A stretch of 41,519 bases of DNA from a virus. Made by a program: the position numbers and the translations under genes. Where the stretch lies: IMG/VR virus record IMGVR_UViG_3300042934_001367, positions 1 through 41,519 of that record; one strand, 5' to 3'. Below are positions 7,080 to 18,757 of this stretch, piece after piece. The notes below the pieces were generated by a model. That model saw nothing but the letters and a program-made list of their open reading frames with translations. It made no database searches and was not told the DNA's origin. Position 1 is the stretch's first letter. Every line of letters starts with the position of its first letter.

Positions 7080-8381
7080 ATGAGTATTAAAATCAATAAA
7101 TTAGAGATAGAAAATGTCAAGAGAGTAAAAGCGGTAAAGATTGAACCAACTGCAAATGGGTTGACTGTCATTGGCGGTAAAAATAACCAGGGTAAAACAT
7201 CAATTTTGGATTCAATAGCTTGGGCACTGGGCGGAGATAAATACCGCCCTTCAGATGCACAGCGCAACGGTTCAGTAATACCACCTAACCTTCATATGGT
7301 AATGTCAAATGGTTTGATAGTTGAGCGTAAAGGTAAAAATTCAGACCTTAAGGTAATTGATCCAGAAGGCCAGAAAGGCGGTCAGCAGCTCCTGAATGAA
7401 TTTGTAGAACAACTTGCACTAGACCTACCTAAGTTCATGCAGTCAACAAGTAAAGAAAAAGCTAACACATTGCTGCAGATCATCGGAGTAGGAGACAAGC
7501 TTTTTGAAATAGAAAGACAAGAACAGGAAGTATATAATCGTCGTCGCACTATAGGTCAGATAGCAGACCAAAAGAAGAAGTTTGCCAAAGAGATGACTTA
7601 TTATCCGGATGCACCAAAGCAACCTATTTCAGCTTCAGAATTAATTAAACAGCAGCAAGAGATACTTGCCAAAAATGGAGAGAATCAGCGCAAACGAGAT
7701 CAGGCATTACATCTACATGCAGAAAGAAATCGTCTTGCAGAAAAAGTAAATATGTTAAAAGAAGAACTTGAAAAATACCAAAAGCAGCTTATTCAGGTAG
7801 ATATGGACATGAATACTGCTTATAAAACTTCTGAACAGCTTCACGATGAGTCCACTGAAGAACTTGAAAATAATATTACCAATATTGAAGCTATTAACCG
7901 CAAGGTACGTACTAACCTGGACAAGGACAAAGCTGAAGAAGATGCTCAGAACTATGAAAGTCAATACAATACACTGACAACTCAGATTGATGATTTAAGA
8001 AAGTCAAAAATTGATTTGCTGAAGAATGCAGAGCTTCCTCTTCAGGGCTTATCGGTTGAAGATGGAGAGCTTACATACAAAGGATTTAAATGGGACAACA
8101 TGTCCGGTTCAGACCAGCTTAAGGTATCTGCAGCTATAGTAAGAAAACTCAATCCTCAGTGTGGTTTCGTACTCCTGGATAAACTTGAACAAATGGATCT
8201 TGACACACTGAAAGAATTTGGCGCCTGGTTAGAATCTGAAGGACTTCAGGCAATAGCAACTAGAGTAAGCACGGGTGATGAATGCAGCATAATTATTGAA
8301 GATGGTTATGTAGCAGGAGCTGAAAAAATAGAAGACATAAAAGCGGAGGAAACTCCAAAATGGAAGGCTGGTGAGTTTTAA
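7080..8381 (+). CDS. SMC/RecF-like AAA ATPase
   Basis: The protein has 433 residues from ATG 7080. This start is preferred to ATG 7044 because AAGGAGG lies just before it. Walker A is GGKNNQGKTS (32-41). A long coiled coil lies in the middle (about 175-310). An ABC-signature-like SGSDQLKVS is followed by a Walker-B-like FVLLDKLEQMD in the last quarter. The DK in place of DE at the usual catalytic position is notable. Such ATPases sit beside single-strand annealing or exonuclease genes in phage recombination cassettes. The role here is in DNA recombination or repair, inferred. Confidence 0.8.
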   Translation: MSIKINKLEIENVKRVKAVKIEPTANGLTVIGGKNNQGKTSILDSIAWALGGDKYRPSDAQRNGSVIPPNLHMVMSNGLIVERKGKNSDLKVIDPEGQKGGQQLLNEFVEQLALDLPKFMQSTSKEKANTLLQIIGVGDKLFEIERQEQEVYNRRRTIGQIADQKKKFAKEMTYYPDAPKQPISASELIKQQQEILAKNGENQRKRDQALHLHAERNRLAEKVNMLKEELEKYQKQLIQVDMDMNTAYKTSEQLHDESTEELENNITNIEAINRKVRTNLDKDKAEEDAQNYESQYNTLTTQIDDLRKSKIDLLKNAELPLQGLSVEDGELTYKGFKWDNMSGSDQLKVSAAIVRKLNPQCGFVLLDKLEQMDLDTLKEFGAWLESEGLQAIATRVSTGDECSIIIEDGYVAGAEKIEDIKAEETPKWKAGEF

Positions 8382-10240: not shown

Positions 10241-11851
10241 ATGCAACTAAGACCTTATCAGCAGGCTGCCAGAGAAGCAATTCTGAACGAATGGGATAAG
10301 GGAAACAAAAAAACACTTTTGGTGCTTCCTACTGGTACAGGAAAGACAATTGTTTTTTCAGGTGTTGCTGAGGATTGTGTTCGAAACGGTGAGCGAGTGT
10401 TAATCATGGCTCACCGTGGAGAGCTTCTCGACCAGGCAGCAGATAAACTCAGTAAAGCCACTGGACTTGGATGTGCAGTTGAAAAGGCAGAAGATAGCTG
10501 CCTAGGGAGTTGGTTTAGGGTGGTGGTAGGATCTGTTCAGACGCTTATGAGAGAAAAGCGTCTCGGACAGTTTCCTAAAAACTTCTTTAATACAATAATC
10601 GTTGATGAGGCACATCACTGTATTTCAGAGAGCTATCAAAAAGTATTATCCTATTTTGACCAGGCTAAAGTATTAGGGGTTACAGCTACACCAGACCGTG
10701 GAGATATGAAGAACCTTGGTACTTATTTTGAGAGCCTGGCATATGAGTATACACTGCCTAAAGCAATCAAAGAAGGTTATTTATGTCCCATAAAAGCACA
10801 GACTATTCCGCTTAAATTAGACCTTAGTGGTGTTGGACAACAAGCCGGAGATTTTAAAACAAGTGACTTAGGAACAGCATTAGATCCTTATCTTTATCAG
10901 ATAGCAGAAGAGATGGCCAAGTATTGCTTGGAAAGAAAAACAGTTGTGTTTTTACCTCTTGTAAAGACAAGCCAAAAGTTCAGAAATATATTACAAGAAA
11001 AGGGTTTTGAAGCTGCAGAGGTAAACGGAGACAGCAAGGACAGGGCTGAAGTTTTAGCAGATTTTGACGCAGGTAAATACAATGTTCTGTGTAACTCAAT
11101 GCTTCTTACAGAAGGTTGGGACTGTCCATCAGTAGACTGTATAGTGGCACTTAGACCAACAAAGTTGCGAAGCCTTTACAGTCAAATGGTAGGACGTGGG
11201 ACAAGATTGAATCCTGGTAAAGATCACTTATTATTACTTGATTTTCTCTGGCACACTGAACGCCATGAGCTCTGTCATCCGGCGCACCTAATTTGCGAAA
11301 ATGAAGAAGTTGCACAAAAGATGACAGAAAATATAGAAGTTGCAGGGTGCCCTGTAGATATAGAAGAAGCTGAGCAGCAAGCTACTGAGGATGTTGTTTC
11401 GCAGAGAGAAGAAGCACTGGCCAAACTACTTAAAGAAATGAAAAACCGTAAACGCAAACTTGTAGATCCCTTGCATTTTGAAATGAGCATCCAGGCTGAA
11501 GACTTATCAAGTTATGTCCCTGCATTTGGTTGGGAAATGGGACCGCCTTCAGATAAACAGATTAAAACTCTTGAAAAGCTTGGTATTTTCCCGGATGAAA
11601 TTGACAATGCCGGCAAAGCAACAAAGCTGCTTGAAAGACTTGATAAGAGACGCAGCGAAGGATTAACTACTCCAAGACAAATAAGATTTCTTGAAAGCAG
11701 AGGTTTTGAACATGTAGGAACATGGCAATTTGAACCTGCTAAAAATCTAATTGATAGGATAGCAGCGAATGGCTGGAAGATACCAAGAGATATAAAACCT
11801 AATGAGTATGTACCTGAATTTGTGAAACATGATGAGGGAATAGGATGGTAG
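10241..11851 (+). CDS. DEAD/DEAH-box superfamily 2 helicase
   Basis: The protein has 536 residues. Motif I is PTGTGKT (30-36), motif II VDEAHH (121-126), motif III TATP (148-151). The second RecA domain ends with QMVGRGTRLNPGK (motif VI). The last 130 residues are an extra domain ending in a segment (RQIRFLESRGFEHVGTWQFE) typical of phage SF2 helicases. It unwinds DNA during phage replication. The stop overlaps the primase-helicase start by seven bases. Confidence 0.92.
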   Translation: MQLRPYQQAAREAILNEWDKGNKKTLLVLPTGTGKTIVFSGVAEDCVRNGERVLIMAHRGELLDQAADKLSKATGLGCAVEKAEDSCLGSWFRVVVGSVQTLMREKRLGQFPKNFFNTIIVDEAHHCISESYQKVLSYFDQAKVLGVTATPDRGDMKNLGTYFESLAYEYTLPKAIKEGYLCPIKAQTIPLKLDLSGVGQQAGDFKTSDLGTALDPYLYQIAEEMAKYCLERKTVVFLPLVKTSQKFRNILQEKGFEAAEVNGDSKDRAEVLADFDAGKYNVLCNSMLLTEGWDCPSVDCIVALRPTKLRSLYSQMVGRGTRLNPGKDHLLLLDFLWHTERHELCHPAHLICENEEVAQKMTENIEVAGCPVDIEEAEQQATEDVVSQREEALAKLLKEMKNRKRKLVDPLHFEMSIQAEDLSSYVPAFGWEMGPPSDKQIKTLEKLGIFPDEIDNAGKATKLLERLDKRRSEGLTTPRQIRFLESRGFEHVGTWQFEPAKNLIDRIAANGWKIPRDIKPNEYVPEFVKHDEGIGW

Positions 11852-14073
11852 ACAATAAGAATGACTTAATTGAAATATTAGAATATATCGACCCGTCACT
11901 ACTCGATTACCAGGAATGGGTCAATGTAGGAATGGCACTCAAGGAAGATGGACATACAGCCTCAGAATGGGAAACATGGAGCAGCAAAGACTCAAAAAGG
12001 TACCATCCTGGTGAATGTTTCAAAAAGTGGGACAGCTTCAGGGGCAATAGTAAGCCGGTTACAGCCGGCACTATTGTCCAGATGGCTAAGGACCAGGGAT
12101 GGCTTCCTAAACAATATTCAAACGATAAGGAAAGTAAAGAATTAGACTGGGATGACATAATAGGTTCCAAAGATGAAATGGTTATAGTTGATAAAAACTG
12201 GCTTGAAGGAAAAGACATTGAGGAACCTAACGATTGGAATCCAGTTGGTCAACTTGTTAGATACCTAGAAATATTATTCGAAGCTTCAGAGAATGTCGGC
12301 TATGTAACAGATAGTTGGGAGAAGGAAGGTAAATTTCTCCCAACAAAGGGAGCATGGGACAGGACAGCCGGAGAGCTCATTCAGCAGCTTAATAACTGCG
12401 ATGGTGATATTGGATCCGTTCTGGGAGACTACAAGGAAGAAGCCGGCGCTTGGATCAGGTTCAATCCTCTGGATGGCAAAGGCGTTAAGAATGAGAACGT
12501 TACAGACTTCAGATATGCATTGGTTGAGTCAGACGACATGCCTATTGACCAACAAAACGCAATATACAGGGAACTTGATTTGCCTATAGCGTGTCTGGTA
12601 CATAGCGGTGGTAAAAGCCTTCATGCAATTGTAAGGATTGATGCAGGCGATTATGACGAATACAGGAAACGCGTTGACTACCTTTACAACGTATGTAAGA
12701 AAAATGGGCTTAAAGTTGATAATCAAAATAGAAATCCTTCTAGGTTAAGTCGTATGCCAGGTATCATGAGAAAAGGGCAAAAACAGTTCCTGGTAGATAC
12801 CAATATAGGCAAGGAAAGCTGGAAGGAATGGCAAGAATGGATTGAAGGTATAAATGATGATCTTCCTGATCCGGAGAGCATGGCTGCTGTATGGGACAAT
12901 CTTCCGGAGCTGTCTCCGTCATTAATAGATGGTGTACTTCGACAAGGACATAAAATGTTATTGGCAGGTCCAAGTAAAGCGGGTAAATCTTTTGCTCTTA
13001 TAGAGCTATGTTGTGCAATTGCTGAAGGTAAGAAGTGGATGAACTGGAATTGTGCTCAGGGAAAGATCATGTATGTAAACTTAGAACTTGACAGGGCAAG
13101 CTGCTTACATAGGTTTAAGGATGTTTATGAGGGATTAGGTTGGCAACCAAACAACCTGCAGAACATTGATATATGGAACTTAAGGGGTAAGTCAGTACCT
13201 ATGGATAAACTTGCGCCTAAGCTCATCAGGAGGGCTGCAAAGAAGAACTACATTGCGATAATAATTGACCCTATTTACAAGATTATAACTGGAGACGAAA
13301 ACAGCGCGGACCAGATGGCTCACTTTACAAATCAGTTTGATAAGGTTTGTACAGAGCTTGGTTCGGCAGTAATTTATTGTCACCATCACAGCAAAGGAAG
13401 CCAAGGTAATAAGCGAAGCATGGACAGAGCTTCTGGATCAGGAGTGTTTGCACGTGACCCTGATGCACTTCTAGACTTAATCGAATTAGATTTATCTGAA
13501 GCTATGATTAGCCAGGAAGTGAACAAAGCAATGTGCGGCGTTTATGAAAAATGGATTAAAAAGTATGTTGCTAATTGGGAAGAAGAAGTATCACAGGATG
13601 ATTTATGCTCTGCTATGGCAATGGGTAATTTAAGCAATAAGTTGTTACGACCAGAGATTTTTGACAAAGTAAAAATAGAAATTAATGAAACTAACAAAGC
13701 AGTAAGCCAGCGTACTGCATGGCGTATTGAAGCTACTTTGAGAGAGTTCCCTAGTTTTGCTCCTATAAACCTGTGGTTTGAATATCCGGTTCATAGAGTT
13801 GATACAGTGGGAGTATTAAAAGGTGTTGAAGCTGAAGGTGAAAAGGCGCCGTGGCAAAAGGCGATGGAGAAGAGAAAACCTAAAGAAAAGAAAGAAAAAG
13901 ATAGGAAGGCTTCTCTTGAAACAGCATTTGATGCATGTAGCCTAAGCGGAAAAGTTACAATTGACGATTTGAAAGAATATATGGGAGTTACCGAAAAAAC
14001 CGTAAGAAATCGGATAAAAGAACACGGTGGATTTTGGGTCGAAGAAAGCGAAGTCGGAAGGAAAAAAACATAA
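11845..14073 (+). CDS. Primase-helicase (PriCT_2 + AEP-like + RepA-like ATPase)
   Basis: The protein has 742 residues. Residues 5-85 are a PriCT_2-type domain (DYQEWVNVGMALKEDG). Residues about 190-310 look like an archaeo-eukaryotic primase core (FRYALVESDD, LVHSGGKSLHAIVRID). Residues about 360-550 are a RecA-fold helicase: Walker A GPSKAGKS (375-382), Walker B IIIDP (D475) and YCHHHSKG (511-518). A small HTH ends the protein (DLKEYMGVTEKTVRNRIKEH). It would prime and unwind at the origin. The repeats in 14060-14250 begin in its last codons, as is usual for an initiator beside its origin. Confidence 0.85.
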   Translation: MVDNKNDLIEILEYIDPSLLDYQEWVNVGMALKEDGHTASEWETWSSKDSKRYHPGECFKKWDSFRGNSKPVTAGTIVQMAKDQGWLPKQYSNDKESKELDWDDIIGSKDEMVIVDKNWLEGKDIEEPNDWNPVGQLVRYLEILFEASENVGYVTDSWEKEGKFLPTKGAWDRTAGELIQQLNNCDGDIGSVLGDYKEEAGAWIRFNPLDGKGVKNENVTDFRYALVESDDMPIDQQNAIYRELDLPIACLVHSGGKSLHAIVRIDAGDYDEYRKRVDYLYNVCKKNGLKVDNQNRNPSRLSRMPGIMRKGQKQFLVDTNIGKESWKEWQEWIEGINDDLPDPESMAAVWDNLPELSPSLIDGVLRQGHKMLLAGPSKAGKSFALIELCCAIAEGKKWMNWNCAQGKIMYVNLELDRASCLHRFKDVYEGLGWQPNNLQNIDIWNLRGKSVPMDKLAPKLIRRAAKKNYIAIIIDPIYKIITGDENSADQMAHFTNQFDKVCTELGSAVIYCHHHSKGSQGNKRSMDRASGSGVFARDPDALLDLIELDLSEAMISQEVNKAMCGVYEKWIKKYVANWEEEVSQDDLCSAMAMGNLSNKLLRPEIFDKVKIEINETNKAVSQRTAWRIEATLREFPSFAPINLWFEYPVHRVDTVGVLKGVEAEGEKAPWQKAMEKRKPKEKKEKDRKASLETAFDACSLSGKVTIDDLKEYMGVTEKTVRNRIKEHGGFWVEESEVGRKKT

Positions 14074-14250
14074 AATTTCCCTATTTCCCTAGGGAAGAAA
14101 AAAACATAAATTAAGTTATTTTCCCTAAGAGAGAAAAAGAAAAAATACGTTATTTTCCCTTGACTTTTTAGACGGAAAAAAACATGTTTTAAGTTATTTT
14201 CCCTAGGGAAGAAAAAAACATTATATAAATATATATATTTTCCTTTCCCT
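14060..14250. repeat. Iteron-like repeat cluster, possible phage origin
   Basis: TTTCCCT occurs six times (14076, 14084, 14120, 14154, 14198, 14244). AGGGAAGAAAAAAACAT is repeated exactly at 14091-14107 and 14205-14221. TTAAGTTATTTTCCCT is repeated at 14111-14126 and 14189-14204. GGAAAAAAACAT is repeated at 14060-14071 and 14174-14185. Two CCCTAGGG palindromes occur, and a pure A/T stretch follows at 14221-14240. An AT-rich, repeat-dense tract directly behind the primase-helicase gene is a natural candidate for the replication origin. This is an inference. Confidence 0.6.
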
Positions 14251-14265
14251 CACTCCGCTCGACCC

Positions 14266-14328
14266 GTCAAGGGGGTAAGTAGTCGTGCGTCAAGCTCACG
14301 CACGACGACTCCTTCCCCTATCCTTGAC
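14266..14328. other. Large imperfect hairpin downstream of the repeats
   Basis: The outer arms GTCAAGG (14266-14272) and CCTTGAC (14322-14328) pair, as do middle GGGG/CCCC tracts. The inner arms GTCGTGCGT (14282-14290) and ACGCACGAC (14298-14306) pair perfectly around a 7-base loop. The G+C-rich structure stands out in an AT-rich setting. No T run follows, so it is not an ordinary terminator. It may be part of the origin or a leader structure of the methylase mRNA, whose ATG lies three bases after it. Confidence 0.6.
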
Positions 14329-14331
14329 TAA

Positions 14332-15183
14332 ATGAAACTTTTAAAAAGAAAAAAGGTGATAGAAATTAAAAATGCAATTTTAAAATACCCTGGAAGCAAA
14401 TGGAGAATAGCAAAGTGGATAATATCACACTTCCCGAAACATCACAGTTACCTAGAACCGTATGCAGGGAGTTTGGCAGTTTTATTTAATAAGCCACTAA
14501 GCAATATAGAAACGGTAAATGATCTGAATCATGATGTAGTTAACTTCTTTAGATGTATAAGAGAAGATTCGGAAAGACTTGCAAGGATTATTGAAGCTAC
14601 ACCATACAGTAGGTATGAATACGACCAAATGTACTATGCTGATACACCGGATTGCGACTTTGAGAAAGCAAGACAATTTCTTGTGAAATGTTGGCAAGGT
14701 CATGGGTACCGTATTAATCAGTACAAAGTAGGTTGGAAAAATGATGTGCAAGGTAGAGAAAAAGCATATGCTATGAAGCATTGGAATGAGCTTCCTGAAA
14801 GAATATTGCTTGCATCTGAAAGGTTAAAACAAGTTCAAATAGAATGCATGCCAGCAATTGAGTTGATTGAGAGATTTAAGTTTTCGGATGTATTGATATA
14901 CGCAGATCCTCCGTACCTTATGGAGACACGAACAGCTCATACAAAGCAACAGTATTCACATGAAATGTTAGATGAGCAGAGCCACATAGAATTACTTGAA
15001 GTATTACTACAACATCCAGGGCCTGTGATTATATCAGGATATGAATCTGAATTATATAAGGAAATGTTAGAAAATAGGGGCTGGACAAAGGATGTCATTA
15101 CAAGCAGTGATCAGTCAAGTAAACCGAGAACAGAAGTTATTTGGATGAATTACGAATTAAAGCAAATAAGGATGGAGATATAA
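14332..15183 (+). CDS. dam: Dam-type DNA adenine N6-methyltransferase
   Basis: The protein has 283 residues. The class D12 pattern is clear: KYPGSKWRIAKWI at about 18-30 (SAM-binding loop), YLEPYAGSLAVLF, and the catalytic DPPYL motif in the last third. Phage Dam enzymes protect DNA from host restriction or mark it for packaging. ATG 14332 has no ribosome site and follows a hairpin. GTG 14356, or ATT 14365 behind AAAGGTGAT, are alternative starts that keep the whole catalytic domain. Target site unknown from sequence. Confidence 0.88.
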   Translation: MKLLKRKKVIEIKNAILKYPGSKWRIAKWIISHFPKHHSYLEPYAGSLAVLFNKPLSNIETVNDLNHDVVNFFRCIREDSERLARIIEATPYSRYEYDQMYYADTPDCDFEKARQFLVKCWQGHGYRINQYKVGWKNDVQGREKAYAMKHWNELPERILLASERLKQVQIECMPAIELIERFKFSDVLIYADPPYLMETRTAHTKQQYSHEMLDEQSHIELLEVLLQHPGPVIISGYESELYKEMLENRGWTKDVITSSDQSSKPRTEVIWMNYELKQIRMEI

Positions 15184-16801: not shown

Positions 16802-18757
16802 TTGAATAAATTAATTGAATTAGCAGTAACTACAGGGGTAGCAGAACTGGTAAAAGATTGTGTAAATATGTATATAAAGCCTAAATTGGAAAGCATTAAT
16901 TTAACTAATAGTATTGCTCTTGAAGAAAAATTTAATGAATATATTTTTAGAAGTTATAATAAACATTTATATATGAATACTATTGTGTTTAAAAACCAAC
17001 AAAAAACAATAAATGATTTATACATACCATTGACAGTAATAAAAAATGATGATAAGCGATCAGAACATGCCGAAATGATATCTATAAATACTTTTCCAAG
17101 CGATTTCATGCCGAAATATGGGAAAATATTATTAATTGATAGTGCTGGCATGGGTAAGTCAACTATTATTAAGTATTTATATCTCTTGTCATTAAAATGC
17201 AATAAAGGTGTTCCTATATTAATAGAATTAAGAAAACTGGGTAAAGACGATTCAATAATTGATTTCATTATGGATGAAATAAATGGAATTAGCAAAGAAT
17301 TTAAGAAAAAGGAAATATGTTCTTTAATAGAAAGTGGTGATTTTATCTTTTTCTTTGATGGCTATGATGAAATAATAGATGAGAATAAAAGTATTGTTAC
17401 AGATAATTTACAAAGTTTTATTTCCAAAGCTGATAAAAATTTATTTATAATATCTTCAAGAGAAGAAAGTTCTCTAAGTTGTTTTGGCAATTTCCAGAGA
17501 TTTGACATAAGACCATTAAATAAAATAGAGGCATACAGCTTAATAAAAAAGTATGATAATGATGGAGATTTATCAAAGCAATTAATAAATAAGCTAGAAA
17601 CTGAAGAGAATCTCAAAATCATTAATGAATTTTTAACCAATCCATTAATGGTTTCTTTACTATATAAAGCATTTGAATATAAAGCGAGTATTCCTTACAA
17701 AAAGAATATATTTTATAGGCAAGTTTACGATGCACTGTTTGAGGATCATGACAGAAGCAAAGGAAGTGCATATGTTCATGAAAAAAGAAGCAAATTAGAT
17801 ATAGAAGATTTTTACACTATAATGAAAATATTAGGCTTCTTAACTTTGAAGGTAGGTATAAGTTATTCAAAGGATGAGATCATTAATTTTTTAAAGAAAT
17901 GCAAAAAGTTAGCTATAGGAATTAATTTTTCAGAAAATGATTTTGTTTATGATATGGTTAATTCCGTTCCATTATTTGTTAAAGAAGGAATTGAATATAA
18001 GTGGATACATAAATCTTTTCAAGAATATTTTGCTGCGAATTATATTTGTATTGATGCCAAAGAAAAAGAGAGTACTTACTTAACCCAAATGATAAATAGT
18101 AATAGTGTTGATGGATATTATAATGTATTAGACTTTTGTTATGATATAGATTATAAGGAATTTAGGAAAACAATTATTTATCCAATCATAAAAGATTATA
18201 TTCAATATTATAATAACTCTTATACTGATAGTATTTACAGTAAATATAATTCGACTGATTTGGATATAAGAAAAAGTATTAATTTTATTTATAGGGAAAA
18301 TTATATAAGAAAAGTGGATATTAGCGACATTCCAAAATTAGAATTCGATGAATTTTTTAAAGAATGGAAATCATTTAGTCAGAAACATTGTATTGCAGCT
18401 ATTCACTCTTCAGGACTTTGTTTAGGTGTTGTTGAAAACTATATAGGTTCTGTAATATTAAAGTTGTTATTTGGTAAACAATCTTCTATTGTTAAAAAAT
18501 ATAATCGAAATAATATTGATAGCAAAGAGGTACACTTAGTTGATGAGATACCTGAAGGTGAATACTGTATAAATGACGATAGAGAGAATATATTAAATAA
18601 TGAAAATGTATTTGGACTGGTTAACAATTTCGTTATCTTAAGCAGGCCATTGAAAAGGAACCCCCCAATAGTCTTTGATTATAATGAATGCTTAAATATA
18701 AAAAATGAAATTGAGGAAGAAATCAGATTTGAAAAAGAAGACTTATTGTTTTTGTAG
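16802..18757 (+). CDS. NACHT-domain STAND NTPase, candidate anti-phage defence protein
   Basis: The protein has 651 residues. The N-terminal 100 residues are helical, with a Y-x-PL linker (74-77). NACHT module: P-loop LIDSAGMGKST (111-121), Walker B FIFFFDGYDEI (181-191), sensor IISSRE (216-221), RPL (237-239), then the conserved winged-helix/superhelix signature WIHKSFQEYFAA (401-412). The final 240 residues have no visible LRR, TPR or WD repeats, and no nuclease or TIR motif is recognised. Bacterial NACHT (bNACHT/Avs-related) proteins sense phage and stop growth. The start is TTG behind GGGGGG. Its own promoter and terminator, and a coding sequence visibly more AT-rich than its neighbours, mark it as acquired cargo. 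The effector activity is unknown. Confidence 0.88.
   Translation: MNKLIELAVTTGVAELVKDCVNMYIKPKLESINLTNSIALEEKFNEYIFRSYNKHLYMNTIVFKNQQKTINDLYIPLTVIKNDDKRSEHAEMISINTFPSDFMPKYGKILLIDSAGMGKSTIIKYLYLLSLKCNKGVPILIELRKLGKDDSIIDFIMDEINGISKEFKKKEICSLIESGDFIFFFDGYDEIIDENKSIVTDNLQSFISKADKNLFIISSREESSLSCFGNFQRFDIRPLNKIEAYSLIKKYDNDGDLSKQLINKLETEENLKIINEFLTNPLMVSLLYKAFEYKASIPYKKNIFYRQVYDALFEDHDRSKGSAYVHEKRSKLDIEDFYTIMKILGFLTLKVGISYSKDEIINFLKKCKKLAIGINFSENDFVYDMVNSVPLFVKEGIEYKWIHKSFQEYFAANYICIDAKEKESTYLTQMINSNSVDGYYNVLDFCYDIDYKEFRKTIIYPIIKDYIQYYNNSYTDSIYSKYNSTDLDIRKSINFIYRENYIRKVDISDIPKLEFDEFFKEWKSFSQKHCIAAIHSSGLCLGVVENYIGSVILKLLFGKQSSIVKKYNRNNIDSKEVHLVDEIPEGEYCINDDRENILNNENVFGLVNNFVILSRPLKRNPPIVFDYNECLNIKNEIEEEIRFEKEDLLFL

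Follow-up and report, generated by a model that had tools for sequence, protein, structure and literature searches.

Dyad iterons, an A/T core, and a conserved hairpin form a candidate replication origin behind a phage primase-helicase gene

Results

The window, meaning the whole 41,519-base stretch analyzed here, is the virus record IMGVR_UViG_3300042934_001367. It carries repressor, terminase, portal, head, and tail genes and represents a temperate-type phage. Its replication block lies on the + strand and encodes an SbcC/RecF-like ATPase, a Sak4-like annealing protein, a DEAD-type helicase, and a primase-helicase of 742 aa (11845..14073, +). The primase-helicase gene is the last of this block, and iterons, an A/T core, and a hairpin lie directly 3′ of it. 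A D12-class N6-adenine methyltransferase gene (14332-15183, +) starts 3 nt past the hairpin; in the other relatives examined, RusA or unrelated genes mostly stand in its place. Elsewhere in the window, a ParB-like protein (1767-2672, +; phrog_3264, 1.5e-39) adjoins the repressor. A 26-30% GC island between the replication genes and the terminase holds a gene at 16802-18757 (+) for a 651-aa NACHT-domain protein (PF05729, E 1.6e-5, just below the curated cut-off) with the short NACHT-associated C-terminal domain SNaCT5 (PF22711, 4e-25). The protein, which is absent from PADLOC 2.0.0, is a candidate bacterial NACHT defence protein.

The primase-helicase, our proposed initiator, was dissected with Pfam, PHROGs, AF2 models, and structure matches. 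Pfam placed PriCT_2 (2e-22) at residues 9-81 and the RecA-like AAA domain AAA_25 (2e-27) at 358-519, and PHROGs matched the protein to phrog_2597, DNA primase. Between PriCT and the helicase, within an AEP primase of residues ~100-340, lie the motifs ALVESD, SGxKSxHA, and DxQNxNPSRLSR (203-306), which are kept in at least 95% of relatives; the AEP motifs, including the His in motif II (SGxKSxHA), were assigned by eye. RSF1010 RepA was the sole PDB sequence match (E 2.7e-5), and residues 337-657 of the AF2 model (mean pLDDT 81.6) matched the same protein with Z 20.4. By both sequence and fold, the helicase part (~337-657) is homologous to RSF1010 RepA. The tail consists of a basic linker (664-692) and a C-terminal winged helix (680-742). 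Modeled together with the linker, the last 60 residues gave a winged helix of the DtxR type (Z 9.3, rmsd 1.6 over 60). One of the structure models used an alignment built from the window and the fetched loci only. The linker (GEKAPWQKAMEKRKPKEKKEKDRKASLE; codons at 13837..13920, +) is the part that we propose reads the inner word, ACAT. Codons at 13996..14013 (+) specify KTVRNR (718-723), where the recognition helix begins and N722 lies.

This architecture is that of the InversePrim family of AEP primases, described from Firmicutes prophages as having PriCT before the primase, followed by a RepA helicase (Kazlauskas et al., PMC5862659). The domain called PriCT-1 there is related to PriCT_2, the name Pfam gives here. 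The window protein has PriCT ahead of the primase, the motif II His, and a RepA-family helicase; phage genes surround it, and its relatives occur in Streptococcus, Enterococcus, and Clostridia. On architecture and host range, the protein belongs to InversePrim. The passages of PMC5862659 consulted describe neither an origin nor a C-terminal DNA reader for the family. Within the literature searched, no origin was described for InversePrim, and the family name appeared only in PMC5862659.

An earlier note on this DNA had read the segment 14060-14328 as a probable origin made of TTTCCCT iterons and a hairpin. Its six TTTCCCT copies are indeed present, all on the + strand, at 14076, 14084, 14120, 14154, 14198, and 14244. 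The whole window contains 12 copies against 9.4 expected, which corresponds to ~0.06 expected per 269 bases. Dinucleotide shuffles of 14060-14260 gave a mean of 0.14 copies and a largest count of 3, and in none of the 2000 did any 7-mer occur six or more times. The repeats thus far exceed what chance would give. The four longer exact direct repeats were likewise recovered (24 nt at 14084/14198, 17 nt at 14111/14189, 14 nt at 14061/14097, and 12 nt at 14060/14174), as were the two CCCTAGGG palindromes at 14087 and 14201 (0.21 expected in the window). A further exact direct repeat, GTTATTTTCCCT, is present three times. The array directly follows the primase-helicase gene, as had been noted, and the last codons of that gene (GGAAAAAAACATAA), which ends at 14073, form half of the first repeat.

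The heptamer is genuine as a sequence, but not as the plain repeat unit that the note had taken it for. The unit is an imperfect dyad of ~29-36 bp, AGGGAA-(g)AAAAAAACAT...AAGTTATTTT-CCCT. Five dyads can be read in the window. The first (14060..14082) is degenerate and overlaps the last primase codons; the second (14091..14126) reads AGGGAAGAAAAAAACATAAATTAAGTTATTTTCCCT; the third (14131..14160) has a degenerate left arm; and the fourth (14173..14204) reads CGGAAAAAAACATGTTTTAAGTTATTTTCCCT. In the last dyad (14205..14250), the arms AGGGAAGAAAAAAACAT and TTTTCCTTTCCCT flank the A/T-only palindrome ATTATATAAATATATATATTTT at 14220..14241. The note had listed this tract simply as A/T-only; it lies inside the last dyad and is our proposed DNA unwinding element.

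Beyond the array lies the 63-nt imperfect, G+C-rich hairpin (14266..14328, +), GTCAAGGGGG...CCCCTATCCTTGAC with the loop CAAGCTC, which we propose as a single-strand initiation (priming) site. It too had been noticed earlier, and DNA folding of a 96-nt stretch around it (-18.3 kcal/mol, z -4.7) bears it out. The folding energy of the hairpin alone is unexceptional, since a segment at 12028 inside the primase gene folds equally well. What is exceptional is how well it is conserved among relatives. Nineteen hairpins, aligned on sequence only, were laid on the window's structure, and 86% of the cells were paired. Changes on both sides of a pair were seen in 41 cells, compared with 13.9 in shuffled alignments and 9-19 with slid partners. 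The stem thus shows compensatory changes (covariation). The alignment includes G-U pairs. The RNAalifold consensus recovered 15/22 pairs, because the apical stems vary between subtypes.

The hairpin is also polar. Unpaired stem bases in 33 hairpins fall mostly on the 3′ arm (280 vs 82), and most loops contain AGC or AGCT. A covariance model, R1, found one place in the window, with 83 bits on the + strand and 22.5 on the reverse strand; reverse-strand matches of the model were rejected as separate sites, being the same hairpin read backwards. Across 71 sources, strong scores fell at the origin site only. In a sample of 295 genomes from one order, the primase occurred in two, the same two that gave strong hairpin matches, which lay ~290 and ~500 nt behind it. 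A third genome match (G156, 29 bits) was taken as chance, the primase being absent from its 3-kb locus. Searched with blastn, phages gave one match, 67 nt, to the hairpin, and plasmids gave only two weak matches, to A/T-rich Helicobacter DNA. Rfam had no family matching the segment or the hairpin. An intrinsic terminator was ruled out, as the terminator scan misses the hairpin at 14266 and TAAATGAAAC, with no T run, comes next.

To view the layout across relatives, loci with the same primase were fetched (80 viral and 31 genome), of which 100 had enough downstream sequence and 75 were non-redundant. In nearly all Firmicutes relatives read, the order behind the primase was iteron dyads, last dyad, G+C-rich hairpin, and a variable gene. 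The isolated Bacillus phage BCJA1c has the full layout; none of the three phage records examined has an annotated origin. The center of the last dyad is an A/T palindrome or, in streptococcal phages, a short hairpin. The distance from A/T tract to hairpin is 12-26 nt in the 17 loci with automatic location, and stop codon to hairpin spans 142-318 nt. Four rumen relatives (L039, L096, L097, and L111) have the last dyad and the hairpin only, which suggests that this is the minimal form of the putative origin. The distant member L075 has no such element directly behind the primase, and we count this against the origin reading.

Several subtypes depart from the window's plan. In the streptococcal loci L040, L041, and L114, a short hairpin with iteron arms, e.g., TTCTCTCTTCGAGAAGAA, replaces the A/T palindrome, and the usual large hairpin follows. 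The enterococcal-type loci L047, L050, L051, and L054 have fewer iterons, and in their large hairpin long arms frame a short apical stem, an arrangement that resembles a fusion of the A/T core with the priming hairpin. In L070, a small ORF (~7196-7760) separates the primase from the iterons; the putative origin would therefore move as a unit with the hairpin and not with the stop codon. Near-identical hairpins accompany differing iteron words in four streptococcal loci (L038, L042, L082, and L100). The probable reader of the hairpin is therefore not the winged helix but some conserved part of the protein.

The iteron words differ from phage to phage and include AGGGAA (TTTCCCT), GGGACA, GACGCAAA, TGCAGA, GGTGTCAAA, CGGGGAA, and GTAACA, among others. 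Outer words were compared with the residue at the N722 position. AGGGAA loci have Asn in 15/16 (Lys in one) and GGGACA loci have Arg in 10/10, so that Asn and Arg loci divide 15:0/0:10 by outer word (Fisher 3e-7). The inner word (TCGA/TCGG or ACAT/ACGT) tracks the basic linker motif (15:4/0:13, Fisher 7e-6). Automatic calling gave L029, L075, L089, and L098 as exceptions; on reading, L029 is of the ACAT type, and L075 and L098 are without a clear iteron array. All four pairings of outer with inner word are seen. The GGGACA-Arg pairing is found in both clostridial and streptococcal lineages, whose tails are otherwise divergent.

Recently diverged pairs locate the change at the tail. The primases of the window and L005 share at least 98% aa identity to codon 600 (core 99%) and 50-75% from codon 641, and their iterons differ; between L050 and L051, the differences are confined to codon 680 onward. 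On the conserved-core tree, independent pairs numbered 4 for the outer word (1 on well-supported branches) and 8 for the inner word (4). These pairs go the expected way and stay below significance by sign test, and their small number is counted against the origin reading. When residue distances in a sliding window of 24 residues were compared with iteron k-mers, the winged helix did not stand out and several peaks fell outside the tail; the test is too coarse to serve as support, and its outcome counts against the origin reading. The association of word and tail is no proof of contact because the tail codons adjoin the iterons, and one recombination could move both.

Discussion

With a probability of about 0.85, we read 14060-14328 as the origin from which the phage replicates and the primase-helicase encoded upstream as its initiator. 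The claim already made for this segment gains support from relatives that carry the same composite 3′ of the same gene. Further support comes from the joint presence of hairpin and primase in whole genomes and from winged helices that change along with the iteron word. Beyond the note, the present analysis adds the dyads, the placement of the A/T core within the last of them, the modular exchange of words, the one-sided bulging of the hairpin, and the family name. GC skew shows no switch at 14 kb, which counts against the reading; the skew is uninformative here because nearly all genes of the window are on the + strand.

A mechanism can be proposed by analogy with RSF1010 and the roles of its RepC, RepA, and RepB′. 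The sequences show the parts, their order and conservation, the covariation of the hairpin, and the joint change of winged helix and word; binding, melting, priming, and the direction of replication we infer as follows. In each dyad arm, the C-terminal winged helix would bind the outer word (AGGGAA = TTCCCT), and the inner word (ACAT) would be contacted by the basic linker just ahead of that helix. Protomers placed head to head on the last dyad would open the A/T palindrome that its arms enclose, and the RepA-like helicase ring would load. Unwinding would then expose the hairpin, 24 nt beyond the A/T core, as a single strand. The N-terminal PriCT/AEP part may start a primer at or next to the hairpin, as RSF1010 RepB′ does at ssiA, and host or phage replication proteins would extend it. 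Given the origin reading, we somewhat favor such a priming role for the hairpin.

A different role for the hairpin within an origin is possible, though we consider it unlikely. The hairpin might act as a double-stranded (cruciform) platform on which the initiator assembles, as proposed for pRN1. There, a 100-nt stem-loop following the primase-helicase gene is all that is required, and assembly at an extruded structure has been suggested (PMC4234260). The near-sameness of the streptococcal hairpins despite differing words would suit such a platform. The one-sided bulges point instead to one folded strand, as does the far better score of one strand under the covariance model, and both the helicase and the primase part belong to the RSF1010 type.

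It is improbable that winged helix and iterons changed together through hitch-hiking of neighboring DNA, with another phage or host protein as the initiator. The adjacency of tail codons and iterons invites this explanation, and in recently swapped pairs identity drops from about codon 640-680. However, GGGACA goes with Arg in clostridial as well as streptococcal lineages, whose tails diverge in other respects, and the pairings of linker with inner word and of helix with outer word are separate. To a similarly small degree, we credit the possibility that the iterons serve as an origin or in autoregulation and the hairpin acts in the transcript, in processing, stability, or translation of downstream genes. 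The replication genes and the hairpin all lie in one + strand operon, single-strand polarity suits RNA as much as DNA, and the hairpin alignment contains G-U pairs. Against a transcript role, the spacing between hairpin and A/T core stays within 12-26 nt, whereas the gene that follows and its distance vary, and neither an Rfam family nor a T run was found. A non-origin function, as a packaging or recombination site or as an operator array through which the primase represses its own operon, is very improbable: winged-helix-bound dyads would also fit an operator and a RusA resolvase gene often comes next in relatives, but the array sits where its own gene ends, on the 3′ side, and not at a promoter (a sigma-70 scan found no site), the terminase genes are ~5 kb off, and an A/T core within a dyad next to a hairpin is origin-like.

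Returning to the origin reading, we tentatively suggest, at a little under even odds for the combined claim, that this phage origin belongs to a class not yet described. One polypeptide would do the work of RSF1010's three. Its code would have two parts, separately exchangeable among Firmicutes phages, with the winged helix reading the outer word and the basic linker the inner one. The last 60-100 codons and the iterons would form an exchangeable module that resets replication specificity, and the hairpin would be a strand-specific, bulged, word-independent priming site. InversePrim primase-helicases in prophages of Streptococcus, Enterococcus, and Clostridia thereby gain a candidate origin with testable anatomy, beside the gene in each phage, of a type that we did not find described in the literature searched. 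The natural series of words and matching winged helices makes the two-part protein-DNA recognition code directly testable; if true, the code would predict which prophages are able to share or compete for replication.

Known systems share some of these features. In SaPIs, the initiator helicase Rep has a C-terminus that matches iterons around an A/T core in ori; to our knowledge, the known SaPI ori has no large hairpin, and the primase is separate from Rep. In phage P4, primase and helicase are likewise united in one polypeptide, the alpha protein, and the winged helix at its C-terminus binds the iterons of the origin. P4 differs from the window in having a TOPRIM primase, another helicase, and no known ssi-type hairpin. 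P4 alpha and its ori are also drawn into the comparison in PMC4234260, which concerns pRN1 and phage BIP-1. These are like the window in having a large stem-loop directly 3′ of an AEP primase-helicase gene, conserved in structure though varying in sequence, and a primase-helicase that ends in a winged helix. The stem-loop origin of pRN1 was shown experimentally directly behind its primase-helicase gene (PMC4234260). Unlike the window, pRN1 and BIP-1 have an SF3 helicase in place of the RepA/RecA-like one, lack iterons, and have a stem-loop of unrelated sequence.

In RSF1010 (IncQ), RepC binds the iterons, RepA unwinds, and RepB′ primes at ssi hairpins (PMC4234260, PMC4434180). Its oriV resembles the window in its iterons and A/T-rich part, both of which were found here, in its hexameric RepA-type helicase, and in a hairpin serving an AEP primase with a helix bundle. 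RSF1010 has separate RepA, RepB′, and RepC, whereas here there is one 742-aa polypeptide with a C-terminal winged helix in RepC's place; its iterons are direct, whereas those of the window form dyads. RSF1010 also has two ssi hairpins, one per strand, in contrast to the one larger, bulged hairpin found here with model R1, a difference that we count against the origin reading. Membership in the RSF1010 or pRN1 origin type is not claimed. RSF1010 oriV and the pRN1 stem-loop serve as precedents with experimental support (PMC4234260, PMC4434180), and the hairpin described here is a candidate single-strand priming site in a phage that would join these two kinds of origin.
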